Below, one piece after another: positions 31,360 to 59,531 of a stretch of DNA of 64,000 nt (its first letter is position 1; each line of letters starts with the position of its first letter). The position numbers and the translations under genes are program-made. Source of the DNA: Elusimicrobiota bacterium. Its GTDB lineage: Bacteria > CG03 > SLGR01 > PWQF01. Below the pieces are notes generated by a model. The model saw only the letters and a list, made by a program, of their open reading frames with translations, ran no database searches and was not told the DNA's origin. The stretch is from positions 18,068 to 82,067 of the forward strand of contig PWOI01000196.1 of assembly GCA_003557485.1 (NCBI GenBank). Direction: 5' to 3'.

Positions 31360-32340
31360 ATGGAAAAAAGTTTTCTTTTAATCAGGTATTCCTCACTCGG
31401 CGATGTTGTCCTGGCAACAAGCGCCGTTGAGAGCATAGCCGGCAATATTCCCGGCGCAAATATCAGTTTTCTTACAAAGCCGCAATATACCGAAGTTTTT
31501 CAAAATAATACTCATATTACGGAAATACTTACCCGGCCGCCTCTTTTAAGGAAATATGATTATATTATTGACCTTCATAACAGCTTAAGGTCAAATTTTA
31601 CTAAGCTTCTGATTAATGCGGGGAACCGTTATACTTACAATAAGGCGGCTTACGCAAGGCGAGCTTTTCTTCTTAAGAGAATCAGAAACCCTGTATTGGA
31701 TAAAGATGTCATAGAAAGGTATCTCGGAGCCCTTAAAGGTGCGGGACTTAAAACGGAATATGTTCTTCCCAAAATATACCTGACCGCCGGGGAAGAGGAG
31801 GGAGCTGGCCGGCTTACGCAGAGAGAAAACTATATAGTAATTGCTCCGGGAGCCAAATGGAAAACAAAGCAATGGATGGAAGAATATTATTCTTCGCTTA
31901 CTATAAAAATAGTTCGAGATCTTGGTCTTGACGTTGTGCTTGCGGGAGATAAGAACGACGAGGAAATATGCCGGAGTATAGTTTACGGTTCGGGAATACT
32001 AAAAAAGCATATAGTAAACCTTGCAGGCAGGACTTCAGTAAGGACCCTGGCCGCAGTACTTAAAAAATCAAGAGTTTCGGTTACAACCGATTCGGCTCCC
32101 CTTCATATAGGCCGGGCAGTAGGGGCAAAAGTTGTCTCGTTATTCGGGCCTACGGTAAAAGAGTTCGGGTTTCAGCCGAGGGAGGCAAATACCTGCATAC
32201 TGGAAAAAGAGATGGAGTGCCGGCCATGCAGCCTTCACGGTTCGGATAAATGCAGATTTAAAGATAAAGCCTGTATGAAAAGGATAGAGCCTTACGAGGT
32301 TTTTAACGCGGTTAAAAAGTTTGCAGGGTTTGATGTGTGA
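31360..32340 (+). CDS. Glycosyltransferase family 9 (heptosyltransferase-like), copy 1
   Basis: 326 residues. Seen: the N-terminal IRYSSLGDVVLATSAVE, GAKWKTKQW, TDSAPLHIGRAVGAKVVSLFGPT, and a cysteine-rich tail (CRPCSLHG, then two more C). These match ADP-heptose:LPS heptosyltransferases, which extend the inner core on Kdo. The similar next gene makes a tandem pair, probably heptose I and II transfer; which is which cannot be told here. Confidence 0.9.
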   Translation: MEKSFLLIRYSSLGDVVLATSAVESIAGNIPGANISFLTKPQYTEVFQNNTHITEILTRPPLLRKYDYIIDLHNSLRSNFTKLLINAGNRYTYNKAAYARRAFLLKRIRNPVLDKDVIERYLGALKGAGLKTEYVLPKIYLTAGEEEGAGRLTQRENYIVIAPGAKWKTKQWMEEYYSSLTIKIVRDLGLDVVLAGDKNDEEICRSIVYGSGILKKHIVNLAGRTSVRTLAAVLKKSRVSVTTDSAPLHIGRAVGAKVVSLFGPTVKEFGFQPREANTCILEKEMECRPCSLHGSDKCRFKDKACMKRIEPYEVFNAVKKFAGFDV

Positions 32341-33319
32341 GAAAATCCTTGTAGTTCAGACGGCCTTTCTGGGGGATTGCGTGCTGACACTTCCCCTGGT
32401 AAACGCTTTGAATCGCGCCGGGAGTAAAGTCGATGTCGTATGTAAAAAAGGACTGGAAGACATTTTCAACAGCTGCCGCGGCGTTTCTGAAACAATTATT
32501 TTTGACAAGAAAACTTCAGACAGGGGAATCAGGGGGATTATCAGGATTTCCTCCGCTCTGAAAAAGAGGAATTACAGCAGTGCCTTTCTTCCGCAGAGAT
32601 CGTTTCGCAGCGGACTTCTGACATACCTTGCCGGCATAAAGAAAAGAACGGGGTTTACAAGGGGAGGTTCCAAATTTTTTTTAACTGAGAAGGTGCCCTT
32701 TGACTGGAACAGACACGAAGTAGAACGTCAGTTAGAACTCGCGCGGTCTGCCGGTTTTGAAGTGTTTCCCGCGGAGTTTAACCTCAAACCCGATACGGAA
32801 AAAGTCCGGGAATGGAGAGAAAAGCTTCACGGCCCCGGGAAACTTGTCGGAATTGCGCCACAGAGCAACTGGCAGACAAAAAAATGGCCGCCGGAGAATT
32901 TTAAGAAAATTGTCCGGGAATTCTCAAAAGAAAATACAGCTGTCATACTTGGCAGCGCTCGGGAAGAGTGGGAAGGCAGAAATATAATAAATCTTACCGG
33001 TGAAACTTCTGTCAAAGATCTTATAGCGGCCTGTTCGCTTCTTGATGTTCTTGTTTCAAATGACTGCGGAGTTATGCATATAGCCTCTGCTGTCGGAACC
33101 GGGGTTGCTGTTATTTACGGGGCGACAGTCCCGGAACTGGGGTTTACACCCTGGGGAGAACACGTGGTCATACAGAACGGCCGGCTTGGATGCCGCCCCT
33201 GCAGCCTGCACGGCCCCAGAAAATGCCCTAGAAAGCATTTTAAGTGCATGACAGAAATCAGCCCGGAAAATGTTATCCGAGCAGCCGGGGGCCTATTAGA
33301 AAAAAATGGGAAAAGATAA
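32333..33319 (+). CDS. Glycosyltransferase family 9 (heptosyltransferase II-like), copy 2
   Basis: 328 residues from ATG 32333, which overlaps the previous stop; an in-frame TTG lies at 32321. Seen: VVQTAFLGDCVLTLPLV, APQSNWQTKKWPPENF, SNDCGVMHIASAVGTGVAVIYG, and a tail like that of copy 1 (CRPCSLHG, then C and C). The four-cysteine tail shared by both copies may bind a metal or be structural. Heptose donor synthesis is partly encoded nearby (heptose-7-P kinase at 52608, GmhB domain at 48815). Confidence 0.92.
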   Translation: MCEKILVVQTAFLGDCVLTLPLVNALNRAGSKVDVVCKKGLEDIFNSCRGVSETIIFDKKTSDRGIRGIIRISSALKKRNYSSAFLPQRSFRSGLLTYLAGIKKRTGFTRGGSKFFLTEKVPFDWNRHEVERQLELARSAGFEVFPAEFNLKPDTEKVREWREKLHGPGKLVGIAPQSNWQTKKWPPENFKKIVREFSKENTAVILGSAREEWEGRNIINLTGETSVKDLIAACSLLDVLVSNDCGVMHIASAVGTGVAVIYGATVPELGFTPWGEHVVIQNGRLGCRPCSLHGPRKCPRKHFKCMTEISPENVIRAAGGLLEKNGKR

Positions 33320-37438: not shown

Positions 37439-38670
37439 AAGGTAAAATCAACTGGAAAGAATCGGTAATAGATTTCTTTATATATTCGGGTATTTTGATT
37501 TATATAAGCATGTTCTTTCCTTCACCTCTGGGTTCAGGCGCTCAGGATATTGGGGCAAATCTGGCTTTTTTACTTCTTTTAGCGACAAGAAAAGTTAACG
37601 TTAAAAATTTGTTTTTTAATAAAATATCTTTATCTTTATTGATATTTTTTGCTGCCCTGGTTGTTTCAAGCTTAATGTATTCCGATATACCTGATGTTCT
37701 AAATTCTGTGCGTAATGGTTTAAAGGGGCTTGCACTGTTTTTTTCAATACAAATATTATGTTTTTCCGGTCGGAAAAGAGATAAAATTTTTGTTCTGTCA
37801 TTATATCCGCTTTTTTTAACTTTTATTGTTATGTCCTCCTATATTCCGCTTTTGCTCGGTATAGTAGAAGACGTAAGCAGGGAAGCTGGTTACTTAAGGG
37901 CTTTAGGCATACATAAAAATATTACTGCTAAATTCTGGAATATAGGACTGCCGGTAACGATAAGTACTTTTCTTTTTGTAAATTCCATAAAACTGAAAAT
38001 TATACTTGCTGCTTTTATAGTATTATCATTTGCAGGGATACCTCTGACTTTTTCCCGTGGGGGTACTATTGGAATGGTTTTTGCGCTTTTAATATTTTTT
38101 ACAGGTATGATGGTTTTTTTGTCAAACAAGTTCTCACTTACAAACAGGATAAAACGGATAGCAATAATTGCGGGCGGGTCCGCAGTGGTTACTCTTATGC
38201 TGTTTTGGAGGACAATAACTTCCAGATTTATATCAAGAGACTGGGTTACTCTTACTGGTAGACTGGATTCCATATGGCCTGCAATAATAAGAGCAGTCAG
38301 GCAGCGTCCTTTTACCGGTTACGGCCTTAGAAGTTTTCGCAGGGTTTTTTCGGATTTTGGCAGCTGGAGAGTAGTGCATGCTCATAATGTTTTTATGCAG
38401 GTTCTTGTGGAGGGTGGAATAACGGGTCTGATTCTTTTCCTTCTTATGCTTTTTATTTTCATAAAACAGTCATTTAAATATGTTAAGTTGAGAAATGAAG
38501 CTTCAGTTTATGCTCTTTCTTTTATAAGTGTCGCTTTTGGTTCTATATTCATAAACGGTATGGTTGAATATTTCGGTTTTCAGCACTTAATGTTTATATT
38601 AAGTTCGGTTTGGTTTTATGAAGCGTGGATAAGATTTAAAAATTCAAACAGATGTACCGGCGAAAAGTAA
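37435..38670 (+). CDS. O-antigen ligase/polymerase-like membrane protein, copy 1
   Basis: 411 residues, mostly hydrophobic helices, with the family's large external loop and TFSRGGTIGMVFAL plus RPFTGYGLRSFRRVF near it, typical of Wzy/WaaL. These join O-chain to lipid A-core or polymerise repeat units in the periplasm. The start is GTG at 37435, overlapping the previous stop. AT-rich like its left neighbour. A second member of the family is encoded at 46918. Confidence 0.82.
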   Translation: MKGKINWKESVIDFFIYSGILIYISMFFPSPLGSGAQDIGANLAFLLLLATRKVNVKNLFFNKISLSLLIFFAALVVSSLMYSDIPDVLNSVRNGLKGLALFFSIQILCFSGRKRDKIFVLSLYPLFLTFIVMSSYIPLLLGIVEDVSREAGYLRALGIHKNITAKFWNIGLPVTISTFLFVNSIKLKIILAAFIVLSFAGIPLTFSRGGTIGMVFALLIFFTGMMVFLSNKFSLTNRIKRIAIIAGGSAVVTLMLFWRTITSRFISRDWVTLTGRLDSIWPAIIRAVRQRPFTGYGLRSFRRVFSDFGSWRVVHAHNVFMQVLVEGGITGLILFLLMLFIFIKQSFKYVKLRNEASVYALSFISVAFGSIFINGMVEYFGFQHLMFILSSVWFYEAWIRFKNSNRCTGEK

Positions 38671-40259
38671 AAATAGTTAAAAAAACAATAAAGCGAGGTT
38701 TAAAAGTCTACCATCCCGCCGGACATAAAATAAACTGGGAAAGTTTCCTTCCTTTTTTTGAAGATCCTGAGCCTTCGCCGGACATTAGAAAGAAGCCCAG
38801 GGCCCAGCGCCGGCTTTTTATTTTTAAAACCGGAGGGGAAAGATACCACATAAAAAAGTTTAGCTATTTTATCTCTCCGCGTTTCAGGGATAAGTTCAGG
38901 GGTTTTCTTTTCCAGAGAACAGCGGCAAAACGGCAATTGATTTACTCGGTAAAACTTAATCAGCTGGGAATAAAAACTGTTTTTCCTTATTTTGCAGTAG
39001 AGAGAAGAAAGGGATTGAAAAAGGAAAGCCTTTTTATTACCCCGTTTACGGAGCGTCCGCGGCTGTTTCACAGTTTGCAGTCGAAAAAAATTCAGTATTC
39101 TCAAAAAATAGAACTTTTCCGAAAAGCCATAAGAGAAATATTTCTGCTCCACTCCAGCGGTATATTTCACGGTGATGCTCATACCCAGAACATCCTTGTT
39201 GATGATGGCAGTCTTCTGTGGTGCGATCTTGACAGAACAAAAAAATCCCGTCTGTTTTTAGAAATTCAAGGCAGGTTTTCTGATTTTGCACACCTTTTTC
39301 GTTCTGCTATCGCTGCCCTGATTTCATCCGGGGACTGGAGCAGCAGCATCAGGGAAGAGGTACTTGATATATGTGAGAAAAACTATCCCGGCTACGAAAA
39401 ATTAAAAAGAAAAGTATATATAAGGACTTCGGAAAGACTTGAAAAATTCAATTATGCGTCAATTAAAAATATTGTCGCTGAAACCCCCGAACCTTCGGTT
39501 ACAATATACCACCCTGAAGGCTACAATCTTGACTGGCAGTCCTTTATTCCTTTCCTTGATTTTCCGGAGCCGTTTAAGCCCGAGAAAATAACATCACGCG
39601 GAAGCCGGAGGGTTTTTATTTTTGAAGCGCCCTCGGGGCATCGGTACCATGTAAAAAAATTCAGCTATGAACAGTCTCCGCGCCTAAGGGACAGGTTTCG
39701 GGGATTTTTTTTCCAGTCTTCAAAAGCCAGAAAACAGGCTATTCAGATAGAAATGATAAGAGAGGCGGGGCTTGATACGGCTTTCCCGTGGTTTGCCGTT
39801 GAAAGAAAGAAAGGAGTGAAAAAACAGAGTCTTTTCATAACTCCCTATAAGGATGCTCCCAGTATGGCAAAGGTTTTCGCTTCTTCAGGAGTTTCTTTTG
39901 CCGAGAAGTACAGTATTCTTAAGAAGGCCCTTGAAGATGTAAGTGCCATGCACAGGGGCGGGGTATACCATATAGACACTCATATTAAAAACATACTTGT
40001 GGCGGATGGGGATCTCTTATGGTGCGACCTTGATGATGTAGGTAAAAACCGGATAAGACTGGAAACCAGGGGCAGGTTTAAAGACTGCTACAAACTTATG
40101 CGTTCTGCTATTATACTTCTTATCAGGTCAGGCCAGTGGCAAAAGGCGATGAGCCCGGATGTTGTAAAAACTTTTGAAGAAGCTTACCCGGGTCATTTAA
40201 TAATAAAAAGAATAATATTAAAGAGCCTTTCAAGAAGGTTTAAAGAATTTGAATACTGA
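38652..40259 (+). CDS. Tandem double-domain LPS (Kdo/WaaP-type) kinase
   Basis: 535 residues made of two homologous kinase domains, about 16-270 and 282-535. Domain 1 has VYHPAGHKINWESFLPFF, catalytic loop HGDAHTQN (H173, D175, N180) and D192 in WCDLD. Domain 2 has IYHPEGYNLDWQSFIPFL, HIDTHIKN (H440, D442, N447) and D459 in WCDLD. WaaP and Kdo kinases phosphorylate core sugars. Both domains look catalytically complete. Doubling is unusual; it may phosphorylate two positions or act as a built-in dimer. Start overlaps the ligase gene by 19 bases. Confidence 0.85.
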   Translation: MYRRKVKIVKKTIKRGLKVYHPAGHKINWESFLPFFEDPEPSPDIRKKPRAQRRLFIFKTGGERYHIKKFSYFISPRFRDKFRGFLFQRTAAKRQLIYSVKLNQLGIKTVFPYFAVERRKGLKKESLFITPFTERPRLFHSLQSKKIQYSQKIELFRKAIREIFLLHSSGIFHGDAHTQNILVDDGSLLWCDLDRTKKSRLFLEIQGRFSDFAHLFRSAIAALISSGDWSSSIREEVLDICEKNYPGYEKLKRKVYIRTSERLEKFNYASIKNIVAETPEPSVTIYHPEGYNLDWQSFIPFLDFPEPFKPEKITSRGSRRVFIFEAPSGHRYHVKKFSYEQSPRLRDRFRGFFFQSSKARKQAIQIEMIREAGLDTAFPWFAVERKKGVKKQSLFITPYKDAPSMAKVFASSGVSFAEKYSILKKALEDVSAMHRGGVYHIDTHIKNILVADGDLLWCDLDDVGKNRIRLETRGRFKDCYKLMRSAIILLIRSGQWQKAMSPDVVKTFEEAYPGHLIIKRIILKSLSRRFKEFEY

Positions 40260-48115: not shown

Positions 48116-48818
48116 ATGGTGCCACGATATTATATCGAGTTTCTTGGAACCCACGGATGCGGTAAGACAACTCTGGCCACTGCAGTGACCCGGCTGCTGG
48201 TAGCTGCGGGCTTCAGCGTTGAAAACCGCCGCCGGCTTCATAGAATGAGTCATTCCGGTCCCGTATCTTCCGTAAAGCCCGGGAATCTTTTGGGCCTAGT
48301 CGGTTTTTTTGTTTTTGCGATAAAAGTGCTCTACTACAGCTTAAGAATAGTCTCAAAAATAAACGCGTCATACAAGAAAAAATTTGATACATTTCAGATT
48401 CTTTTATTCAACGCTCTTGGCCTAAAGTTGAGTTTTCATCTGCATGGCGGAATCATACTGCATGACTGGGGAATTGTAGGAAGACTTATAAGATACGATC
48501 CCGGCAGCCTTTTTACGGATTATTTAAAAGCAGTGCTGACGTCCTATGCGGAATTGAAGACAATTCTTGTATATATTTCACTGGATCCTGAAGTGAACGC
48601 AAAAAGGGTAATTGAACGAAAATTTAAAAATTTCGGCAAGAGAAGGAGAATTCAGTGCTTTTTTTAAAAGATATTCAAAAGCGGGCCGGCAGCTTGAAAA
48701 ATCCTGGGCTTTCATTCAGAAAAAATTTGAGAATGAAGAATGGATAAAAATGATAAAAGTAAGTTCAATAAAAAGTCCTGACTGTCTTGCCTTGGCTGTA
48801 ATGGAACATATAAAATGA
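48116..48818 (+). pseudogene. P-loop kinase-like paralogue 3, split by a frameshift
   Basis: The first frame (48116-48667) opens with YIEFLGTHGCGKTT, Walker A at residues 11-19, and runs close to the 41322 protein until it stops soon after a run of seven Ts (48659-48665). The homology continues in the +1 frame to 48818, with FIQKKFENEEW and KSPDC aligning to YIEKEFAEKF and KSPHC of paralogue 1. A one-base loss restores a single ~233-residue protein. Candidate slip sites are the T7 run and an AAAAA run near 48626. It may be a real pseudogene, a slippage-decoded gene, or a sequencing error. Confidence 0.72.
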
Positions 48819-50185
48819 ACTTCTTGCAGATTGTGCTCTATTCCGTCTTTAAGACTCTTGCCTTTGTTTTCAGTTATGTTCCAGCAAAGAGTTCCTATTT
48901 TGCAGGCCGGCTGCTGGGGAGGCAGGCCTTTTATATTCTGACGGGAAGAAAGAGTATAACGATTGATAATCTAAGGGAAGCTTTCCCGGAAAAGGATTAT
49001 AACTGGTGTTACAGAACTGCGGGAAAGGTTTTTGAAAATTACGGTCTCAACCTGATGAAATTCTTAAGGTTTGCCCTTAACCCTGTTTCGTGCAGCGTTA
49101 AAACACACGGCATGGAAGTACTCGGGGGTCCTTCCCCGAAAATAATGCTGGGTTGCCACCTGGGCAACTGGGAAATAGCCGGGATGGCTGTTGTGGCTTC
49201 TGGGTATGAAATATTTCCCGTTGCCAAAAGAATACATACTCCTGCTTCCCAGAAACTTGTAGACGGTTTAAGAAAGGCCTTCGGTGGTGAAATGCTTTCC
49301 GATCGCGGCGGCATACGGGCTGTTCTTTCCAGGCTGCGCGATGATAAAACCGTCTATATTCTTTTTGACCAGAGGATAAAAAAAGGGATGCCGTTTCAGT
49401 TTTTTAACCGTCCTGTATGGGGGGCCCATACGGTTTCTCTTCTTCAAAGGAGAACGGGAGCCGATATTATTCCGTGCTGGAGCCGGTCCCGGGGAGAATC
49501 CGTAGAGGTTTATTACGGGCCTGCTTTTAAAATGATTACGGAAGGTGACCCCCTGCGCGCAGATTTAATCAATACACAGAACCATTTTTACTGGCTGGAA
49601 GATAAAATCCGCCGTGACCCGGCGCAGTGGTACTGGGTGCACGATATGTGGAGGCCGCGCAAAAGGGGCTGGAAAACAGTTTTTCTTGACAGGGACGGCA
49701 CTCTTAATGTTGATAAGGGGTATGTTTCTAAAAAGGAGGAACTTGAGTTCATGCCCGGAGTATTTGAAACTCTGAGAAAACTCAGAAAAGCCGGGTACCT
49801 GCTGGTAATAGTTACAAATCAGTCAGGGATAGCAAGGGGCTATTACTCCGAAGCGGATTATATTAAGTTCAGGGATTATTTTCTGGAACGCCTCTTTAAG
49901 GAAGGGGTAATAATAGACAGGACCTATCACTGCCCTCACCATCCCGACGACGGGTGCTCCTGCCGCAAACCTGAACCGGGAATGCTCCGGAGGGCAATAG
50001 ATGAATTGAGGGTAAGCACTTCCCAGAGTTATATTATAGGGGACAAAACGAGCGATGTTCTTGCAGGCAAAAATGCAGGGTTAAAAACAATAGCCGTAGG
50101 GAGAGGAGACTTTAAAGAGGCAGAGCCGGATTATAAGGTTCTTTCAATCCAGCAGGCCGGGAAAATCATTCTTGAGAATGATTAA
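48815..50185 (+). CDS. Fusion of LpxL-type lipid A acyltransferase and GmhB-type heptose-bisphosphate phosphatase
   Basis: 456 residues. N-terminal half (1-280): an LpxL/HtrB acyltransferase with a membrane segment and HLGNWE (H115, E120), the HX4E active site. C-terminal half (287-456): a HAD phosphatase with FLDRDGT (D292, D294), TNQSGIARG, a zinc-type CxH...CxC (C373, H375, C381, C383) and IGDKTSDV, matching D,D-heptose 1,7-bisphosphate phosphatase. One chain would thus couple lipid A acylation with ADP-heptose precursor synthesis. The halves join without stop or frame change. It lies before lpxK, and its start overlaps the frameshifted kinase. Confidence 0.85.
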   Translation: MNFLQIVLYSVFKTLAFVFSYVPAKSSYFAGRLLGRQAFYILTGRKSITIDNLREAFPEKDYNWCYRTAGKVFENYGLNLMKFLRFALNPVSCSVKTHGMEVLGGPSPKIMLGCHLGNWEIAGMAVVASGYEIFPVAKRIHTPASQKLVDGLRKAFGGEMLSDRGGIRAVLSRLRDDKTVYILFDQRIKKGMPFQFFNRPVWGAHTVSLLQRRTGADIIPCWSRSRGESVEVYYGPAFKMITEGDPLRADLINTQNHFYWLEDKIRRDPAQWYWVHDMWRPRKRGWKTVFLDRDGTLNVDKGYVSKKEELEFMPGVFETLRKLRKAGYLLVIVTNQSGIARGYYSEADYIKFRDYFLERLFKEGVIIDRTYHCPHHPDDGCSCRKPEPGMLRRAIDELRVSTSQSYIIGDKTSDVLAGKNAGLKTIAVGRGDFKEAEPDYKVLSIQQAGKIILEND

Positions 50186-50191
50186 AAAATA

Positions 50192-51163
50192 ATGCTGTCT
50201 TTTATTTATCGAATTTTAGTTTCTCTTCATCGCAGGCTTACCCGCAGCCGCCATTCGGGAATCCCGGTTATAAGTGTGGGTAATATAACCGTAGGGGGGA
50301 CAGGAAAGACCCCCGTAGTAATGAAAATAATAAAAGATATCGGTTTCCGCACGCCTGTTGCGGTTGTATCGAGAGGATACGGAAGAAAAACATTCCGCAT
50401 GAAAAAAGTCGGTCTGCGTGACAGTTACCGCTATACCGGTGACGAACCGCTGCTTATTAAGAAAAATTTTCCGGGAGCTCTTGTAATAGCCGCGAAAAAC
50501 AGGTACAGAGGCTCACTCTTTGCAGCAGAAAACGGCGCGGGGGCAGTTATACTTGACGACGGATTTCAAAGCTGGGAGATAGAAAGAGACCTTGAGATAG
50601 TCCTTATCAATGCGCTTTCTCCTTTTGGCGGCGGAAAAATTCTTCCTTCGGGGAGGCTTCGGGAACCCCTTTCCGCCCTGAAGCGTGCGGATTTAATCGT
50701 TGTAACTAAATGCAATTATGTTACGGCCCGGCGCATGGAGGAAATCAAGGGCAGGATAAGGTGTTATGCTCCTTCGTCCGGGATTTTTTATGCCCGGGAA
50801 AAAGTGCGCAGTTTCGGAAAAATATTTGATAAGGATGAACGCCCGGCGGAATTTTTTGAAGGAAGAAAAGCAATCTGTTTTTCCGCAGTGGGGGATAACA
50901 GATCCTTCCATAGCCTTCTTGAACAGTACGGGCTGGATATAATTGAAAAAATAGAAAAAATAGACCACTATAGATGGAAAGAAAACGAAATAAAAAAAAT
51001 TGTTGAAAGATCAAAAGCACTCGGGCTGGATTTGATAACAACTGAAAAAGACGCCGTCAAGCTGCTTTCTTTTGAGCCTTTCGAATGCTGGTATACTAAA
51101 ATGGAAACAGAGATAAGTGAAGAAAAAAAATGGAAGGAAAAAATTTATGAAGTTATCAGTTAA
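50192..51163 (+). CDS. lpxK: Tetraacyldisaccharide 4'-kinase
   Basis: 323 residues. It phosphorylates the 4' position of the lipid A disaccharide. Seen: the Walker A NITVGGTGKTP, VVSRGYGRK, GDEPLLIKKNFP, and VILDDGFQSW (the conserved DDGFQ), then LPSGRLREPLSALKRAD. An N-terminal membrane-associating helix. Other lipid A genes (lpxA/C/D/B) are not in the window. Confidence 0.94.
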   Translation: MLSFIYRILVSLHRRLTRSRHSGIPVISVGNITVGGTGKTPVVMKIIKDIGFRTPVAVVSRGYGRKTFRMKKVGLRDSYRYTGDEPLLIKKNFPGALVIAAKNRYRGSLFAAENGAGAVILDDGFQSWEIERDLEIVLINALSPFGGGKILPSGRLREPLSALKRADLIVVTKCNYVTARRMEEIKGRIRCYAPSSGIFYAREKVRSFGKIFDKDERPAEFFEGRKAICFSAVGDNRSFHSLLEQYGLDIIEKIEKIDHYRWKENEIKKIVERSKALGLDLITTEKDAVKLLSFEPFECWYTKMETEISEEKKWKEKIYEVIS

Positions 51164-51911
51164 ATACAGGCTGCTGGCTTTCCTGTTTTTTATAACAGCA
51201 TTTATGCCGGCCGCCGCTTATAATTCTCCGCGCAGAAGCCGTTTGCCCTTTGCGGTGGGTGAAAAGCTTACATTCTCCGTCCGTTGGGGCGTTATCAGGG
51301 CAGGTGTTGCCACTCTTGAAGTCAGGGAAAACTTTAAACTTGCCGGCAGGGATACTTTCCGGATAGTGCATACCGCCCGCAGCGCAAGGTTCTTTGACCC
51401 GTTCTACCGGGTGCGCAACCGTATTGAGTCTTATATAGACGCCCGTGAACTCTATTCCGTGCGTTATGAAAGGACTATAAGAGAAGGAGGCTACAGCAAA
51501 GACGGACTTATAATATACGATCAGGAATACGGGAGGGCTTACGAAGACGGACATATGTTTGAAATAACAGAGGGAGTTCAGGATGTTATTTCATCTTTTT
51601 ACTTTCTTCGTACAATGGAGCTTGAAGATGGAAAGATATACGAATTTGACGTGGGAAGCGATAAAACGGTATGGCCTCTTGAAGTGGAAGTAATAGGAAG
51701 GGAGCGGATTACCGTTCCGGCCGGAACATTTAACACAATCCTTGTTCAACCCAGAATTCTGGAAGGAGAAGGAATTTTTAAACACGAGGGTGATATATTT
51801 CTTTGGCTGACAGATGACGAGAGACGAATTCCTGTTATGGGAAGAAGCGAGATAATAGTCGGTGCGGTTACAATTCTGCTTACCGATAAAAAGCTTCCCA
51901 GGTTGAGATAG
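51147..51911 (+). CDS. DUF3108-domain exported protein
   Basis: 254 residues from ATG 51147 with an AAGGA upstream; a GTG at 51117 would overlap lpxK by 47 bases. A signal peptide (about 1-24) is followed by the DUF3108 fold: GEKLTFSVRWGVIRAGVATLEV, FFDPFYRVRNRIESYID, and TVPAGTFNTILVQPR. The family is a periplasmic or outer-membrane-side beta protein of unknown role, often found near LPS or envelope genes. 98 bases of non-coding sequence follow, with nothing I could identify. Confidence 0.82.
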   Translation: MKLSVKYRLLAFLFFITAFMPAAAYNSPRRSRLPFAVGEKLTFSVRWGVIRAGVATLEVRENFKLAGRDTFRIVHTARSARFFDPFYRVRNRIESYIDARELYSVRYERTIREGGYSKDGLIIYDQEYGRAYEDGHMFEITEGVQDVISSFYFLRTMELEDGKIYEFDVGSDKTVWPLEVEVIGRERITVPAGTFNTILVQPRILEGEGIFKHEGDIFLWLTDDERRIPVMGRSEIIVGAVTILLTDKKLPRLR

Positions 51912-52009: not shown

Positions 52010-52648
52010 ATGCAGATTGAATATCTTGCCGTACTTATATCAGCATATCTTATAGGCTCTATTTCATTTGCCTATATAGTAGCAAGGGTTGCTGGGGGAG
52101 TTGATATAAGAAAGGCCGGCAGCGGTAATGCCGGAGCAAGGAACGTGGCCCGCTGCCTGGGAGCAAAATACGGGTTTTTAACAGGTTTTCTGGATGTTTT
52201 AAAAGGGGCATTGCCTATGGCTCTTCTTACAAGTCCAGCCCGGGAGTATTCTGGAAGTCTGGCCCTTGCGGCAGCATGTATGCTGGTTGCAGGGCATAAC
52301 TGGCCTGTTTTTCTTGGGTTCAAAGGCGGGAACGGGCTTGCGGTCTCGGTAGGTGTTATGCTGTCATTGGTCTTCCGGATTGCCTTTTTTCTGCTGGTCT
52401 TTACTCTTTTTACGGGTTGGCTCAGTACAAAGATAAAGCCCGTAGCCGAATTTGCATCTCCTGTTGATATAGAGGCAATAGTCGGTTATATCCTTTTTCC
52501 TCTGGTTCTTATGGTTTACGGCGCTGAGCCCTGGATAGTAGTTATGCCGTTGATTTTAGGTGTTATTATGCTGCCTACGAGGATATCTCATATAAAGAAA
52601 GCTGAAAATGAATCAAAAAACACAGTTCCCGCCAGGAATACTGAATAA
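52010..52648 (+). CDS. plsY: Glycerol-3-phosphate acyltransferase PlsY
   Basis: 212 residues, multi-pass membrane protein. It makes lysophosphatidic acid from acyl-phosphate supplied by PlsX (8593). Seen: YLIGSISFAYIVAR, the glycerol-phosphate-site region AGSGNAGARNVAR, GHNWPVFLGFKGGNGLA, and the C-terminal tail. Overlaps the next gene by 41 bases. Confidence 0.94.
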   Translation: MQIEYLAVLISAYLIGSISFAYIVARVAGGVDIRKAGSGNAGARNVARCLGAKYGFLTGFLDVLKGALPMALLTSPAREYSGSLALAAACMLVAGHNWPVFLGFKGGNGLAVSVGVMLSLVFRIAFFLLVFTLFTGWLSTKIKPVAEFASPVDIEAIVGYILFPLVLMVYGAEPWIVVMPLILGVIMLPTRISHIKKAENESKNTVPARNTE

Positions 52649-53591
52649 ATTTAAAGAATACCGGATTCTTGTCGCCGGCGACCTTATGCTTGATAAGTTC
52701 ATAAAAGGTAGCGTTTCAAGAATTTCTCCCGAGGCGCCGGTTCCTGTTATAAAAATTGATTCCGAGAAAAATGTTCCCGGAGGAGCCGGAAACGTGGCTT
52801 TAAATCTTGCATCTCTGGGTTCCTGTGTCTACATTGCTTCCGTAACAGGGGATGATTATTACGGCAGAAAGCTTCAGGAGAGGCTCCGAGAATCCGGGTG
52901 CAATACTGACAGTATATTAAAGGACCCCGGCAGGCCTACAATAGTTAAAACCAGGATTATTGCAGAACATCAGCAGGTAGTGCGTACCGACCTTGAAACC
53001 GAAGGAGAAATTTCCGGGGAAGTTTCCGATAAGATTATTGAAAGTATATCTTCATATTTTAATGAAATAGACGGTGTTATAATTTCAGATTACGGCAAAG
53101 GCTTTGTTACGGAAAAGTTCATAAAGAAAATATTGAAGCTCGCATCGCGCAGAGATATACCCGTTGTAGTAGATCCCCAGGTAGGCCATTTTTTTGAATA
53201 CAAAGGGGTGACGGCAGTTACTCCGAATACAAAAGAGGCTCGTGAAGCCCTTAAAACTGAAATTAAGAATAAGGAACAGCTTATTAGCGCAGGAGAAAAA
53301 CTTTTAAAAAAGCTGGCGTGCCGGACAGTTATAATTACCCGCGGAGAAGAAGGCATGAGTGTTTTTGAAAAAGGAAAATCTCCCTGTCATATTAAAACCG
53401 CTGCAAGAGAAGTATATGATGTTACCGGAGCAGGTGATACCGTTGCGGGTGTATTTACGCTCGGGATAGTCGCCGGCCTTTCAATGTCTGATGCTGCCAG
53501 GCTTGCAAATTGCGCGGCTGCGGTTGTTGTCAGCAAGCTGGGAACAGCCCAGGTTACAATTGAGGAAATAGAAAAAGAGATGCCCCTGTGA
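52608..53591 (+). CDS. hldE: D-glycero-beta-D-manno-heptose-7-phosphate kinase
   Basis: 327 residues, a PfkB/ribokinase-type kinase. It phosphorylates heptose-7-P at C1 for ADP-heptose synthesis. Seen: VAGDLMLDKFIKGSVSRISP, VPGGAGNVALNLASLG, and the C-terminal YDVTGAGDTVAG with the catalytic D. Only the kinase domain (HldE-N or RfaE1) is present; the nucleotidyltransferase domain of full HldE is missing and must lie elsewhere. GmhB function is available from the 48815 fusion. Confidence 0.92.
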   Translation: MNQKTQFPPGILNKFKEYRILVAGDLMLDKFIKGSVSRISPEAPVPVIKIDSEKNVPGGAGNVALNLASLGSCVYIASVTGDDYYGRKLQERLRESGCNTDSILKDPGRPTIVKTRIIAEHQQVVRTDLETEGEISGEVSDKIIESISSYFNEIDGVIISDYGKGFVTEKFIKKILKLASRRDIPVVVDPQVGHFFEYKGVTAVTPNTKEAREALKTEIKNKEQLISAGEKLLKKLACRTVIITRGEEGMSVFEKGKSPCHIKTAAREVYDVTGAGDTVAGVFTLGIVAGLSMSDAARLANCAAAVVVSKLGTAQVTIEEIEKEMPL

Positions 53592-54319
53592 ACAAGAAAG
53601 CGGTAGCAATAATTCCTGCCCGCCTTGGTTCAAGGCGGCTTAAAGAAAAGCCTCTGGCCCTCATATCCGGGAAAACACTGATAAACAGGGTATACGAAAG
53701 GGCTGCAAAACTTAAGAATGTTGTGGATACGGCAGTAGCCGTAGATTCAGTAGAAGTAAAAAAAGAAGTTGAAGGTTTCGGCGGCCGGGCGATAATGACG
53801 CCTTCTAATCTTGGTTCCGGTTCGGAGAGGGTCTTTCACGTTGCTGCAAAGTATTACAGTGATGTTGACGTGGTAGTCAATATACAGGGGGATGAGCCGT
53901 TTTTTAATGCGGAATTTGTGGATTCTCTTATAGAACTGTCTTTTATGAGTGAAGAAGGGCTGGTTTCCGGGTATACTGAAATAAGAAAAGAGCAGGCATC
54001 GGACACCTCCGTTGTAAAAGTTGTTCTGGATGAGAATGACTATGCTATCTATTTCTCCAGGTCACTAATACCCCACGGGGCTGAAACATACAAAAAACAC
54101 CTGGGAATATATGTCTGGAGCCGTGAGGTTCTTGAAAACTTCTGTAGAAGCGGTTCAACGCCTCTTGAAAAAGCTGAAAGCCTGGAACAGCTCAGAGTTC
54201 TTGAAAAGGGGGGGGAAATAAAAATGATGCGCTGCATAAGCGATTCCCCGGGAATAGATACGCCGGAGGATTTAAAGAAAGCGGAAAAATATATATTAAG
54301 TATGAAAGATAATGGTTAG
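53588..54319 (+). CDS. kdsB: CMP-Kdo synthetase
   Basis: 243 residues. It activates Kdo with CTP. The start is GTG, overlapping hldE by 4 bases. Seen: AIIPARLGSRRLKEKPL, GSGSERVFHVAAKY, VVNIQGDEPFF, and SRSLIPHG. The C-terminal SLEQLRVLEKGGEIKM is family-typical. Sits with kdsA, kdsD and kdsC. Confidence 0.95.
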   Translation: MNKKAVAIIPARLGSRRLKEKPLALISGKTLINRVYERAAKLKNVVDTAVAVDSVEVKKEVEGFGGRAIMTPSNLGSGSERVFHVAAKYYSDVDVVVNIQGDEPFFNAEFVDSLIELSFMSEEGLVSGYTEIRKEQASDTSVVKVVLDENDYAIYFSRSLIPHGAETYKKHLGIYVWSREVLENFCRSGSTPLEKAESLEQLRVLEKGGEIKMMRCISDSPGIDTPEDLKKAEKYILSMKDNG

Positions 54320-55124
54320 ATATCCGGAAAAGATTAAAATAGGGGATGTGACTGCCGGCGGCAAAAATAAAGTCATTGTTGCCGGACCCTGCATAATTGA
54401 AGATTTTTCAATGCTTGAGAAGACTGCCGGTTTTATCAGCGAGATCGCTTCAAAAAGCGGGCATGAATTTGTTTTTAAAGCATCCTACGACAAGGCGAAC
54501 AGAACTTCAGCTTCCGCTTTCCGCGGACCCGGTATGAAGAAGGGGCTGGAAATGATAGCAGCAGTTAAAGAAAAATTCTCTCTTCCCGTACTTGTTGATA
54601 TACATTGCAGTCAGGAAGCTGCAGCAGCTGCGGAAATAGCCGACTGTCTTCAGATCCCTGCTTTCCTGTGCCGTCAGACGGATTTAATTTCGGCTGCCGG
54701 GAAAACCGGGCTTCCGGTTAATATAAAAAAAGGCCAGTTTATGAGTCCCGGGTCTATGAAGCTTCAGGGAGAAAAAGCACTCCGGGCCGGTAGCTCCGGG
54801 ATTATTTTTACCGAAAGGGGAACAAGTTTCGGCTACAATGACCTTATAGTGGATATGAGGTCTATTGTTATTATGAAGGAGTCCGGCGGGGCGGTTTTCT
54901 TTGACGTAACCCATTCACAGCAGAAACCGCCTTCCGGAGAGGATGCAGGGTCTTCGGGCAGCAGGAAATTTACTATACCGCTTTGCCGCGCGGCTATTGC
55001 CGCCGGAGCGGACGGGATATATGCGGAACTGCATCCCTGCCCCCCGGAGGCAAAAAGTGACCGGGATACACAGCTGAGTTTCAGGGAATTTGAGGAACTT
55101 GTAAATGCAGTGTCCGAAATGTAA
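54312..55124 (+). CDS. kdsA: Kdo-8-phosphate synthase
   Basis: 270 residues. It condenses PEP with arabinose-5-phosphate. Seen: VIVAGPCIIEDFSMLE, FKASYDKANRTS, LQIPAFLCRQTDLI, NIKKGQFMSPG, and FDVTHSQQKPP. The C-terminus ends as usual for the family. Overlaps the small zinc-ribbon gene by 20 bases. Confidence 0.95.
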   Translation: MVRYPEKIKIGDVTAGGKNKVIVAGPCIIEDFSMLEKTAGFISEIASKSGHEFVFKASYDKANRTSASAFRGPGMKKGLEMIAAVKEKFSLPVLVDIHCSQEAAAAAEIADCLQIPAFLCRQTDLISAAGKTGLPVNIKKGQFMSPGSMKLQGEKALRAGSSGIIFTERGTSFGYNDLIVDMRSIVIMKESGGAVFFDVTHSQQKPPSGEDAGSSGSRKFTIPLCRAAIAAGADGIYAELHPCPPEAKSDRDTQLSFREFEELVNAVSEM

Positions 55125-55281
55125 AGCTCCCTTTAAAAAGAATGCTCAATTATGCAGAAGGTGTGGAGAACCTCTTTCTGCCGAAAGCTGGCAGCCGTCC
55201 TGGAAATGGTCTGCGGTTTTTCTGGTCTCGGTATATGCCGTGCTGGCGGCGGGATATTTGGTGATAAGAATATTTTTATGA
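55105..55281 (+). CDS. Small zinc-ribbon protein with C-terminal membrane helix (Kdo operon)
   Basis: 58 residues: MQCPKCKAPF, then CRRCGE, a CxxC...CxxC ribbon, a linker with three tryptophans, and a hydrophobic helix (about 36-56). It starts inside kdsA and its stop overlaps the kdsD ATG by 4 bases (ATGA), which argues for a translated gene. Same layout as the 92-residue protein at 8021. No known family; a membrane-anchored zinc-binding adaptor is a guess. Confidence 0.65.
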   Translation: MQCPKCKAPFKKNAQLCRRCGEPLSAESWQPSWKWSAVFLVSVYAVLAAGYLVIRIFL

Positions 55282-56237
55282 GCCTTAAAAAAGCAAAAGA
55301 AGTTTTAAAACAGGAAGCGAGGGCAATAAAAAAAATGTCCGGCAGAATAGGAAAATCCTTTGAGAACGCAGTGGAAATGATTGCGTCCTGTGAAGGAAAG
55401 GCAGTTGTAATGGGCGTAGGCAAGTCAGGGCTGATAGGTAAAAAAATAGCTGCTACCCTGTCTTCTACTGGTACGCCTGCTCTTTTTCTTCATGCGGGTG
55501 AAAGTCTCCACGGGGATCTGGGAGTTATCGGGAAAAAAGATATAGTTCTTATCTTTTCCATGAGCGGTTCAACTGAGGAGATAGCTTCAGTTCTTCCTGC
55601 CCTCAAACGGCTTGAAGTTCCGATAATCGCATTTACCGGAAATTGCGCGTCGCTTCTTGCGGGAAGCAGCGCGGAGCTGATACACATAGAAATAGAGCGG
55701 GAGGCCTGTCCTATGAACCTTGTCCCTACTACTTCAACTACCGTTATGCTTGCGGTAGGCGATGCTCTTGCACTTTCCCTGTTGGAGAAAAAAGGATTCA
55801 ATCCGGAAAATTTCGCATCCCTGCATCCGGGAGGGGCACTTGGCAGAAAACTTCTTACCACAGTGGGAGATATAATATCGCGTACAGGGGTTAACCCTGT
55901 AGTGGCTGAAACCGATACGGTTAAAGACGCACTTCTGAAGATGACAGCATCCCGTGTAGGTGCTGCATCCGTCATCGATTCTTCCGGCCGCCTCTGCGGG
56001 TATTTTACAGACGGTGATTTAAGGAGGAGGCTCCAGCAGCACGAAAAAAACATAATGACACGGAATATAAAAGAGGTTATGACGGAAAACCCTTCCTCTG
56101 TCGGTCCCGCGACTCTTGCTATTGAGGCAAAGGAGATTATGCAGGAGAAAAATTTTGACAATATGCCGGTAGTAAATTCAAAAGAAGAGCCTCTGGGAAT
56201 AATTGATGAAAGGGATATCATAAGGGAAGGTATTTAA
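55278..56237 (+). CDS. kdsD: Arabinose-5-phosphate isomerase
   Basis: 319 residues from ATG 55278, fixed by the ATGA overlap and by the normal family N-terminus (SLKKAKEVLKQEARAIKKM). SIS domain: VVMGVGKSGLIGKKIAAT, HGDLGVIGKKD, FSMSGSTEEI, followed by two CBS domains (from about residue 205) that often sense nucleotides or regulators. It makes arabinose-5-P for KdsA. Confidence 0.94.
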   Translation: MSLKKAKEVLKQEARAIKKMSGRIGKSFENAVEMIASCEGKAVVMGVGKSGLIGKKIAATLSSTGTPALFLHAGESLHGDLGVIGKKDIVLIFSMSGSTEEIASVLPALKRLEVPIIAFTGNCASLLAGSSAELIHIEIEREACPMNLVPTTSTTVMLAVGDALALSLLEKKGFNPENFASLHPGGALGRKLLTTVGDIISRTGVNPVVAETDTVKDALLKMTASRVGAASVIDSSGRLCGYFTDGDLRRRLQQHEKNIMTRNIKEVMTENPSSVGPATLAIEAKEIMQEKNFDNMPVVNSKEEPLGIIDERDIIREGI

Positions 56238-56244
56238 CTGCGCC

Positions 56245-56763
56245 GTGTTTGAAAATGTGAAAATAATATTCCTTGATGTAGACGGAGTACTCACCTCCGG
56301 GGAGGTTTATGTGTCAGGAAAAGAGTCTCCCAGGATAATGTATGTCAGGGACCGCCTTGCGCTTAAAGCCCTTAAAGAAAAATCATCTGAAGATATTAAA
56401 ATATACTGGGTGACGGCCCGTCCGTCAAAACATCTGAAAAGAGCTGCCCGGGAACTGAAAATGGACGGTGTTTATACGGGAGTCAGTGATAAGCTGAAAT
56501 TGATACGTAAAATACTTTCTTCTTCGGGTATTGAGGCTGCCCGGGCAATGTACGTAGGCGATGACCTTGTTGATATGTCCTGTATGAAATTCTGCGGCAG
56601 TTCATGCGCTCCACGTGATGCAACCCCGGAGATTAAAAAAATTGCGGATTTTATAAGTACAAGCCCCGGAGGGCGAGGTGCTGTCCGCGAAATAATTGAG
56701 AAAATTTTAAAAGAGAGAGGTAAATGGGGGGAAATTGTAAGGAAGTTTGACCAAGGTTCGTAA
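56245..56763 (+). CDS. kdsC: Kdo-8-phosphate phosphatase
   Basis: 172 residues, a HAD-superfamily C0 phosphatase. Seen: IIFLDVDGVLTSGEV with the nucleophile aspartate, YWVTARPS, YVGDDLVDMSCM. It releases Kdo from Kdo-8-P. The start is GTG at 56245. Overlaps the next gene by 17 bases. Confidence 0.93.
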   Translation: MFENVKIIFLDVDGVLTSGEVYVSGKESPRIMYVRDRLALKALKEKSSEDIKIYWVTARPSKHLKRAARELKMDGVYTGVSDKLKLIRKILSSSGIEAARAMYVGDDLVDMSCMKFCGSSCAPRDATPEIKKIADFISTSPGGRGAVREIIEKILKERGKWGEIVRKFDQGS

Positions 56764-57646
56764 AACAAAAGAGTTTAAACTGGCGCGTAACTTGCTGTTG
56801 TCGTGCATTGTTTTTTTTATTTCGGCTTTTTTTATTATTCTTCCGTATAAAATCTCCCTTTTTGCCGGAAGAACGCTGGGTTTCTGGTTCTGCTTTATGT
56901 TTCACCGTTACAGGAATATCGCAGGCCAAAATTTAAAAAAAGCGTTTCCGGATAAATCTCCGGTTGAACTTAAGACTATCCGGGATGACGTTTTTAGGAA
57001 TATGGGTATGAATCTTGCCGAATTGTGCATGCTTAATTTTAGAAGCCGTTCTTTCTGGCTGGGCAGGATTGAGATAAAGGGAAAGAAGTATATTGATAGG
57101 GCGCTTGAAGAGGGAAAGGGAATAATTCTTCTTTCGGCCCATATAGGGAACTGGGAACTTCTGGGAGCCAGTCTTTCAATGAAAGGTTATTCCGTTGATG
57201 TTGCTGCCAGGGTAATAAAGAATGTTTTTCTGAACGGTGTTCTTGTTTTTTTTCGTTCCCGGCGCGGGGTAAACACTCTATACCGTTCGGGAGCAGGAAA
57301 TTTAAGGCGTATGGCTGAATCTCTGAAAAATGGACGTATATTGGGGATTCTTATAGACCAGGATACAAGAAGAGGAGGCGTATTTGTGGATTTTTTCGGT
57401 ATGCCCTGTTATACTCCGGTAAGCGCGGCAAGGTTTGCCGGTATAAAGAATACGGTAATACTGCCGGGATTTATATACAGAAAGAAGGATTTAAGGCACG
57501 GTATCCGCATTATGGCTGAAGCGGATAAAGTAAGTGACAGAGCTGCTGCTACAGCAGCCCACAGCAGGATTATTGAAGACTTTTTAAGAAAACATCCTGC
57601 TCAATGGATATGGTTTCACAGGCGATGGAAGAGGCAGCCGGCATGA
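56747..57646 (+). CDS. lpxL: LpxL-type lipid A acyltransferase
   Basis: 299 residues from TTG 56747 (17-base overlap with kdsC). An N-terminal membrane helix, then LLSAHIGNWELLGA with the HX4E pair H132/E137, LIDQDTRRGGVFVDFFGMP, and HPAQWIWFHRRWK. It adds a secondary acyl chain to Kdo-lipid A. A second LpxL domain is fused to GmhB at 48815, so two acylation steps may be split between them. Confidence 0.9.
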   Translation: MTKVRKTKEFKLARNLLLSCIVFFISAFFIILPYKISLFAGRTLGFWFCFMFHRYRNIAGQNLKKAFPDKSPVELKTIRDDVFRNMGMNLAELCMLNFRSRSFWLGRIEIKGKKYIDRALEEGKGIILLSAHIGNWELLGASLSMKGYSVDVAARVIKNVFLNGVLVFFRSRRGVNTLYRSGAGNLRRMAESLKNGRILGILIDQDTRRGGVFVDFFGMPCYTPVSAARFAGIKNTVILPGFIYRKKDLRHGIRIMAEADKVSDRAAATAAHSRIIEDFLRKHPAQWIWFHRRWKRQPA

Positions 57647-58173
57647 GGTTTTCTGTTCTTCTTCTTTCAGTGATGTTTTTTTGCGGATGTTCTTCTCCGA
57701 CTGAAGCGCCGGACAGTGCAGGGATCCCGGGAGGCCCGGATAAATCAATTGAGGGAATAACCCTGATAGAAATGGATGGCCCCGATAAAAAATGGGAGTT
57801 GAATGCAGCTTCCGCCGAGCTTATAAAGGATTCGGGCAGGGAACTTGTGAAATTCCGGGATTATAAAATGAATTTTTTTGAAGAGGAAGCGGCAGTATCT
57901 GAACTTGTCGGAAATGAAGGAGAATATGATCGTGTTACGGAAATTTTCGACGCACAGGGCCGGGTGGAGATAATTTCAGAGGACAGAAAAATAATTACAT
58001 CGGATGTGCGTTGGCATCCTGTGGAGGAGGTTTTTACGACCGATATGGAAGTTGAAATCCATACTCTGCACGGGATAGTTAGAGGAGTGGGAATGGTTGC
58101 CTCTAAGAATTTAAATGAAATAGATATTGTTGAAAAGATAAGCGGAGAATTGAGGCATATTGAAGCTGATTAA
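57643..58173 (+). CDS. lptC: LptC-like LPS export protein
   Basis: 176 residues from ATG 57643, overlapping the lpxL stop; this start gives MRFSVLLLSVMFFCGCSS, a signal peptide with a lipobox-like cysteine. An upstream in-frame ATG at 57604 would spoil it. The body is beta-rich, as in LptC/LptA jelly-roll proteins: LVKFRDYKMNFFEEE, YDRVTEIFDAQGRVEI, TSDVRWHPVEEVF. It would pass LPS from LptBFG to LptA. Followed by lptA and lptB. Confidence 0.84.
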   Translation: MRFSVLLLSVMFFCGCSSPTEAPDSAGIPGGPDKSIEGITLIEMDGPDKKWELNAASAELIKDSGRELVKFRDYKMNFFEEEAAVSELVGNEGEYDRVTEIFDAQGRVEIISEDRKIITSDVRWHPVEEVFTTDMEVEIHTLHGIVRGVGMVASKNLNEIDIVEKISGELRHIEAD

Positions 58174-58828
58174 AAAGTTTTATATATTAGTTTTCCCGGC
58201 GCTGTTTTTTTTTCCGGTTCTGCTGCGTGCAGATGAAATAAAAATAGACAGTGATTCAATGAGGATACTGCGCAGAGGCGAAATAATAGAATTTACAGGT
58301 AATGTCAAAGTTACTTCGCCGGAAATGACGGCTACGGCCGAACGAGCAATAATGTCGCAGGACGGAGAACATGTTACGGCGGAAGGCAATGTTGAGCTTT
58401 ATTATTCCAGCGGGGCCTGGGATTTCAGTGGTTGGGGTGAAAAGCTTGTTTTCGACCGGGGAAAAGGGTATATGAATATAGAACAGGATGTAAAGGTTAT
58501 ATACCAGCCAGGCATAACGTCTACTTCGACTGTTGTTTTTGCCGACAGCGCGGAAGTCAGCTTCGGTGAGGGCAGGCAGGAAGGCAGGTTTGAAGGCAAT
58601 GTTGTCGCTTTGAGGGGAAATGTGAGGGTTACCGCCGGGCTTGCCCTTTATGACAGGGAAAGAGAAATTTTTACGTTTACAGAAAGCCCTGTTGCATACA
58701 GTGATATGGAGCAGGCGTACACTAAATACAGGGGGGATAGAATAATATTCAGCCTGATAAGAGAAGAAGTTTCAATGAGAGGAAATGCAGCTACGAGGAT
58801 AAAGTTTTACGATGTCCCTGGAATGTAA
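58160..58828 (+). CDS. lptA: LptA/OstA-like periplasmic LPS transport protein
   Basis: 222 residues from TTG 58160 with a signal peptide (about 1-24). OstA repeats: IDSDSMRILRRGEIIEFTGN, VTAEGNVELYYSSG, and EGNVVALRGNVRVTA. LptA bridges the periplasm for LPS. Longer than the E. coli protein. Overlaps lptC by 14 bases and lptB by 17. Confidence 0.88.
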   Translation: MKLIKKFYILVFPALFFFPVLLRADEIKIDSDSMRILRRGEIIEFTGNVKVTSPEMTATAERAIMSQDGEHVTAEGNVELYYSSGAWDFSGWGEKLVFDRGKGYMNIEQDVKVIYQPGITSTSTVVFADSAEVSFGEGRQEGRFEGNVVALRGNVRVTAGLALYDREREIFTFTESPVAYSDMEQAYTKYRGDRIIFSLIREEVSMRGNAATRIKFYDVPGM

Positions 58829-59531
58829 GGATTTAAGAAAAGAATACAGGAGAAAAGCTGTCGTTGACAGCGTTTCCATAGAAGTCAGTAGAAGAGAAAT
58901 AGTCGGACTTCTGGGTCCTAACGGCGCCGGAAAAACAACTACTTTTAATATGATTGCCGGGCTGATTGAACCGGATTCAGGAAATATTTTCAAGGATAAT
59001 AAAGAGATCACTTCACTGCCCATGTACAAACGGGCGCTTATGGGAATAGGTTATCTTACCCAGGAGCCGTCTATTTTCAGGAACCTGAGCGTTGAAGACA
59101 ACCTTAAGGCCATACTTGAAAATGTGCATGACGGAAAAGAAAGCGTAGAGAAAAAATGCACAGAGCTTCTTAAAGCACTCGGCCTTGAAAAACTCAGAAA
59201 ACAGAAGGCGTTTCTTCTGTCCGGCGGGGAAAAAAGACGGGTTGAAATAGCCAGGTCCCTTATACAGAATCCTAATATGATGCTTCTCGATGAGCCTTTC
59301 GTGGGAATCGACCCGATAGCTGTAAGCGAGATACAGGAAATAATAAGCGGTTTTAAAGATAAAGGAATAGGAATTCTTATAACGGACCACAATGTCAGGG
59401 AGACGCTGCAGGTAATAGACAGGGCTTACATAATGTACGAAGGAAAAATACTTTTAAGTGGCAGCAGAGAGGAACTTCTCGAGTCGCCTGCGGCAAGAAA
59501 AGTATATCTAGGAAGTAAATTCAGAATGTAG
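58812..59531 (+). CDS. lptB: LPS export ABC transporter ATP-binding protein
   Basis: 239 residues. Walker A GPNGAGKTTTFN, the Q-loop region, signature LSGGEKRRVEIAR, Walker B MMLLDEPFVGID, and the switch histidine in ITDHNVRETL. LptB drives LPS extraction with LptFG, which are not in the window. In many diderms rpoN follows; here hpf comes directly after a 14-base gap. Confidence 0.95.
   Translation: MSLECKDLRKEYRRKAVVDSVSIEVSRREIVGLLGPNGAGKTTTFNMIAGLIEPDSGNIFKDNKEITSLPMYKRALMGIGYLTQEPSIFRNLSVEDNLKAILENVHDGKESVEKKCTELLKALGLEKLRKQKAFLLSGGEKRRVEIARSLIQNPNMMLLDEPFVGIDPIAVSEIQEIISGFKDKGIGILITDHNVRETLQVIDRAYIMYEGKILLSGSREELLESPAARKVYLGSKFRM

Follow-up and report, generated by a model that had tools for sequence, protein, structure and literature searches.

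A single reading frame joining a lipid A acyltransferase domain to a GmhB-type heptose-bisphosphate phosphatase domain in one bacterial order

The late acyltransferases of lipid A biosynthesis, represented by LpxL, LpxM and HtrB, have lipid A precursors as substrates on the cytoplasmic side of the inner membrane; the substrate of the phosphatase GmhB is a soluble sugar phosphate of the cytoplasm. Both enzymes are well known, and their combination in one polypeptide is, as far as the open-access literature shows, previously undescribed: we found there no description of an acyltransferase-GmhB fusion or of an LpxK-GmhB fusion, consistent with the statement of a first-pass annotation that no characterised bifunctional enzyme of this kind was known. 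Here we analyse such a frame from an Elusimicrobiota bacterium, a member of a small and uncultured order, located in a window of 64,000 nucleotides (the whole stretch of DNA that was analysed, from contig PWOI01000196.1).

The fused frame and its two domains

The gene is made up of the following parts:

48815..50185, + strand: whole fusion gene, acyltransferase-GmhB, 456 aa
48815..49654, + strand: N-terminal secondary lipid A acyltransferase domain, residues 1-280, N-terminal helices included (PF03279)
49157..49174, + strand: HX4E catalytic motif, H115...E120 (aligned to E. coli LpxL H132/E137)
49655..49672, + strand: linker, residues 281-286 (PRKRGW), from the boundaries of the two domain matches
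49673..50182, + strand: GmhB phosphatase half, residues 287-456 (TIGR00213; structural match to 2gmw)
49688..49696, + strand: nucleophile and acid of HAD motif I, D292 x D294 (counterparts of D11/D13 in E. coli GmhB)
49931..49963, + strand: zinc-binding loop C373-x-H375 ... C381-x-C383, short form (alignment to E. coli GmhB)

The frame runs from an ATG start to a TAA stop and contains no internal stops by a reading-frame check; the start codon is backed by its ATGA overlap with the stop codon of the frame before it. Domain searches placed both halves above their cut-offs. The Pfam family Lip_A_acyltrans (PF03279) matched residues 10-280 with an E value of 2.6e-28 and 99.5 bits (gathering cut-off 22.3), and TIGR00213 (GmhB_yaeD) matched residues 287-425 with 171.6 bits, over its curated cut-off of 149.6. 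Under the NCBIfam models the acyl half stayed below the cut-offs (99.9 bits versus 248 for PRK08419, its best match, and 54 versus 297.8 for TIGR02207), so that it is a superfamily member assignable to neither LpxL nor LpxM. The standalone LpxL-like paralogue (see below) outscores it on the LpxL models.

Active sites were compared with the E. coli LpxL, LpxM, GmhB and HisB sequences, taken from the K-12 record. In the alignment, H115, E120, R153 and D185 of the acyl half correspond to H132, E137, R169 and D200 of LpxL, and the zinc ligands C373, H375, C381 and C383 to C92, H94, C107 and C109 of GmhB, with every checked residue intact in both halves; the residue numbers given for the two active sites in the first-pass annotation are thus correct. 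An AlphaFold2 model built on a 35-row alignment reached a mean pLDDT of 94.5 and a pTM of 0.92. Its HAD half superimposed on E. coli GmhB (2gmw) with Z 28.2 and an rmsd of 1.4 Å over 170 residues, with a lower score for HisB-N (Z 22.5), and its acyl half matched LpxM of Acinetobacter baumannii (5knk, Z 26.9) and PatA (5f2t, Z 25.8). Such a predicted likeness of fold to GmhB and to LpxM/PatA is no proof of activity. Profile matches, catalytic-residue alignment, trees (see below) and predicted fold agree that one frame joins an LpxL/HtrB-type acyltransferase to a complete GmhB HAD domain, as had been claimed from the sequence. Two candidate internal starts, GTG at 49637 and ATG at 49646, lie by the domain junction.

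Conservation, origin and breadth of the fusion

Five other genomes of the order (G002, G003, G004, G005 and G007) likewise carry both domains in one frame, at about 42-51% identity. In a further genome, of the same genus (G001), the gene is 81% identical and carries a single in-frame TAG where the catalytic Glu, E120, would be encoded; no match to the fusion was found by protein search in G006, the order's eighth genome (66% complete). The public records of these genomes carry the label "Elusimicrobia bacterium", or in one case "Candidatus Sumerlaeota", and isolate names that stem from several sampling projects. The linker, of about six residues, is nearly constant in length among relatives, and its W286 is invariant in five aligned sequences. 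Catalytic residues of both halves are intact in the window protein (P0001) and in the five relatives, except for one zinc ligand in G002.

Two of these genomes deserve a separate comment. In G001 the TAG is codon 120 (L047, 487-489) and the remainder of the gene, including the downstream GmhB frame, is intact; it may be a sequence error, a recent inactivation or have another cause. In the G002 protein (L003) the fourth zinc ligand is changed from Cys to Asp (CPHHPDDNCIDRKP), with the GmhB domain otherwise intact.

A missing stop or a frameshift introduced by sequencing or assembly could in principle have joined two neighbouring genes, and both the TAG within the acyl half of G001 and the apparent frameshift of the upstream gene (48116-48667) in this assembly point in that direction. 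Against this, the junction is read in one frame in five other genomes of the order at 42-50% identity, with a near-constant linker length, and around residue 284, where the first-pass annotation had proposed to look, neither a stop nor a break of frame is seen in any relative; the lone break is the one at the E120 codon of G001. With the fused frame conserved in five other genomes of the order, we reject an artefact, to which we leave practically no probability.

Phylogenetic trees were quick ones, without bootstrap, and supports are SH-aLRT values. Fused acyl halves formed one clade (100), apart from a clade of the standalone LpxL proteins of the same genomes (100). Likewise, the fused GmhB halves formed one clade (97), inside a set supported at 97 to which GmhB of E. 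coli belongs, and at a distance from HisB-N. As each of the two fused halves falls in a single clade, one fusion event in the order's ancestor, followed by vertical inheritance, is most likely. Its simplest and most likely origin is the loss of a stop between adjacent operon genes; in a deltaproteobacterial record (L073) an lpxL-like gene adjoins gmhB, unfused, and lpxK and gmhB occur both side by side and fused in a sister family (see below).

Both halves were found in one frame in only seven genomes, all of the window's order (G001, with its stop, being counted), out of about 468 surveyed. The survey comprised 386 genomes across the domain and, from two more phyla, sets of 5 and 82 genomes that were mostly new, the 386-genome search serving as positive control for the two-phylum searches. 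Moreover, a pattern scan of GTDB species genomes, pattern-limited and yielding at least 80 loci, gave no fused frames outside the same lineage among the matches listed. The acyltransferase-GmhB architecture is rare rather than common.

Within the phylum, a sister family has LpxK with GmhB fused to its C-terminus in four of its genomes (G008, G010, G012 and G014), and in G009 and G011 gmhB is a separate gene adjoining lpxK. In these LpxK-GmhB proteins the phosphatase has been joined independently to a different enzyme of lipid A synthesis; the frames are at L009 433-2001, L055 1264-2826 (-), L056 1603-3084 and L058 from the start to 1414 (-). Inspection of long frames around GmhB matches, which is not a full census, also revealed GmhB joined to an HldC-like protein (L161), to GmhA (L163), to GT9 proteins (L079, L198), to a nucleotidyltransferase (L199), to O-antigen-ligase-like proteins (L174 451-2085; L187 1646-3499, -) and to PAP2 proteins (L191 1418-2563; L192 1720-2868, -), the HldC and GmhA partner names being inferred from CTP_transf_like and SIS domains plus sequence. 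Some of the long frames looked like read-through upstream of the start. GmhB has thus fused repeatedly with LPS enzymes, LpxK among them, and the acyltransferase-GmhB protein is one new combination, less singular than first claimed.

The surrounding operon and the identity of the two halves

The fusion lies among genes for LPS synthesis and export, of which the following were recognised:

31360..33319, + strand: two GT9 heptosyltransferase-family genes, candidate ADP-heptose users
50192..51163, + strand: lpxK, lipid A 4'-kinase (PF02606, E 1.2e-76)
51117..51911, + strand: DUF3108 protein (Pfam match; kept in the operon)
52608..53591, + strand: hldA-type heptose-7-phosphate kinase, rfaE domain I only (TIGR02198, 385.7 bits, over the cut-off of 345)
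53588..56763, + strand: kdsB, kdsA, kdsD and kdsC, Kdo biosynthesis
56747..57646, + strand: second, standalone LpxL-like acyltransferase (PRK08419 153 bits, TIGR02207 140 bits)
57604..59531, + strand: lptC, lptA and lptB, LPS export

Following the fusion, the order is lpxK-DUF3108-(plsY)-hldA-kdsB-kdsA-kdsD-kdsC-lpxL-lptCAB, where the gene between DUF3108 and hldA is presumably plsY. This order is shared with the other fusion genomes, with some insertions, as far as the contigs extend, and lpxK is the gene immediately 3' of the fusion in all seven. The product of hldA is the enzyme acting just ahead of GmhB in the pathway. Glycosyltransferases, an O-antigen-ligase-like gene and the two heptosyltransferase-family genes lie 5' of the fusion.

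Several observations concern neighbouring genes. The frameshift of the upstream gene would lie at about 48630-48664, and the continuing frame (span 48116-48818) ends in a TGA overlapping the ATG of the fusion. The DUF3108 gene is kept downstream of lpxK in the LPS operon throughout the order, and its product may possibly have an undescribed LPS-related role. At 38652-40259 of the window one frame encodes a protein of 535 aa that contains two LPS kinase stretches of the Kdo/WaaP type; in G005 (L050 3453-6584) four tandem single-domain frames alternately match the halves of this protein.

Because the genome contains a standalone LpxL as well (56747-57646), the acyl half of the fusion might be dispensable, one half of the protein being catalytically dead and serving a structural or regulatory role only, for instance as a degenerate acyltransferase anchoring GmhB to the membrane. 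The stop at the E120 codon of G001, with its intact GmhB frame downstream, would be in line with this. However, H115, E120, R153 and D185 are invariant across five aligned fusion sequences, and dN/dS between the window and G001 (Nei-Gojobori) is about 0.10 in the acyl half and in the GmhB half alike, a value that is imprecise because dS is about 1.1. By this comparison both halves appear to be under equal purifying selection. We consider a dead half improbable, and infer from the sequences that both halves are active.

Profile search gave no GmhB match other than the fused domain in any of the seven fusion genomes, and this domain is above the TIGR00213 cut-off in the other six genomes of the order carrying the gene as well as in the window. 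HldD is above its cut-off in all seven, the window's own genome included. GmhA matches were found in six of the seven, and a strong HldC match in five, at 168-178 bits, just below the cut-off of 181.5; neither GmhA nor a strong HldC match was found in the window's own bin (86.6% complete).

A dual-role GmhB has been proposed for bacteria with a single gmhB, the Chlorobi (PMC8305728), and the HAD half could accordingly be a histidinol-phosphate phosphatase (HolPase), or a GmhB moonlighting as one for both pathways. This proposal would suit genomes (G000-G005 and G007) that have HisD and lack a clear histidinol-phosphate phosphatase: no PHP-type enzyme was above cut-off in the fusion genomes, and the his operon of G002, the one examined, contains no phosphatase gene. 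In addition, the domain has a short zinc loop like that of HisB-N. Nevertheless, the domain is above cut-off for GmhB and below it for hisB_Nterm (TIGR01261, 99.2 bits versus 140), groups in the tree with GmhB of E. coli, a long way from HisB-N, and is encoded in an LPS operon with hldA. Inositol-monophosphatase-like HisN homologues in the relatives could also supply the histidine pathway, even though their scores are below cut-off and the window's bin yielded none. A histidinol-phosphatase identity or dual role is thus unlikely and not favoured by us as the explanation of the domain, with a side activity of this kind being possible.

Proposed function and comparison with known systems

The fusion is most likely a bifunctional enzyme anchored to the inner membrane, consisting of an LpxL/LpxM-kind acyltransferase and GmhB, fused once in the ancestor of the order and vertically inherited. 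Its N-terminal half, the second of two paralogues in the genome, would act as a secondary acyltransferase of lipid A on the cytoplasmic side of the inner membrane, and its C-terminal half would be a GmhB held at the membrane in fixed stoichiometry with the acyltransferase. The two should be able to work in one protein, because both reactions sit on the same side of the membrane. Direct substrate channelling is unlikely, since the halves share no substrate, product or intermediate. The gain from the fusion would rather be membrane tethering and 1:1 expression of GmhB. As for the tie of late lipid A acylation to ADP-heptose supply that the first-pass annotation proposed, it is a physical one only, and the two reactions have no intermediate in common.

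A more speculative possibility, which we regard as doubtful, is that the convergent fusion of GmhB to membrane LPS enzymes (acyltransferase, LpxK, O-antigen-ligase-like and PAP2) holds heptose-precursor synthesis at the inner-membrane site of LPS assembly, with the acyl half sensing the state of lipid A and modulating the phosphatase. If so, ADP-heptose supply would follow lipid A maturation. Across the order, the only detected GmhB of these cells has been made part of a lipid A enzyme, bringing two LPS branches into one polypeptide. Together with the independent LpxK-GmhB fusions, this provides a natural comparison on whether GmhB gains from being held at the membrane.

Compared with LpxL, LpxM and HtrB (PF03279), the fused acyl half shares the HX4E motif, the Arg and Asp of E. 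coli LpxL and the fold of A. baumannii LpxM (5kn7/5knk) and of PatA. It differs in being only about 25-31% identical to relatives outside the order, in scoring under the curated cut-offs and in having a phosphatase domain added at its C-terminus. The phosphatase half resembles GmhB (2gmw, 3l8e) in its score above the family cut-off, the DxD of motif I, the CxH...CxC zinc site and the rmsd of 1.4 to the E. coli enzyme; here, however, it is the C-terminus of an acyltransferase and not a free soluble enzyme, and its zinc loop is short, without the insert of E. coli GmhB. In the fusions with HldC-like, GmhA, GT9, O-antigen-ligase-like, PAP2 and nucleotidyltransferase partners GmhB is likewise the C-terminal module, attached to a protein of sugar-nucleotide metabolism or LPS assembly, with an acyltransferase in none of them. 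The LpxK-GmhB proteins of the sister family (G008, G010, G012 and G014) are alike in that GmhB is C-terminal to a lipid A enzyme, although the partner there is the 4'-kinase LpxK and not an acyltransferase.
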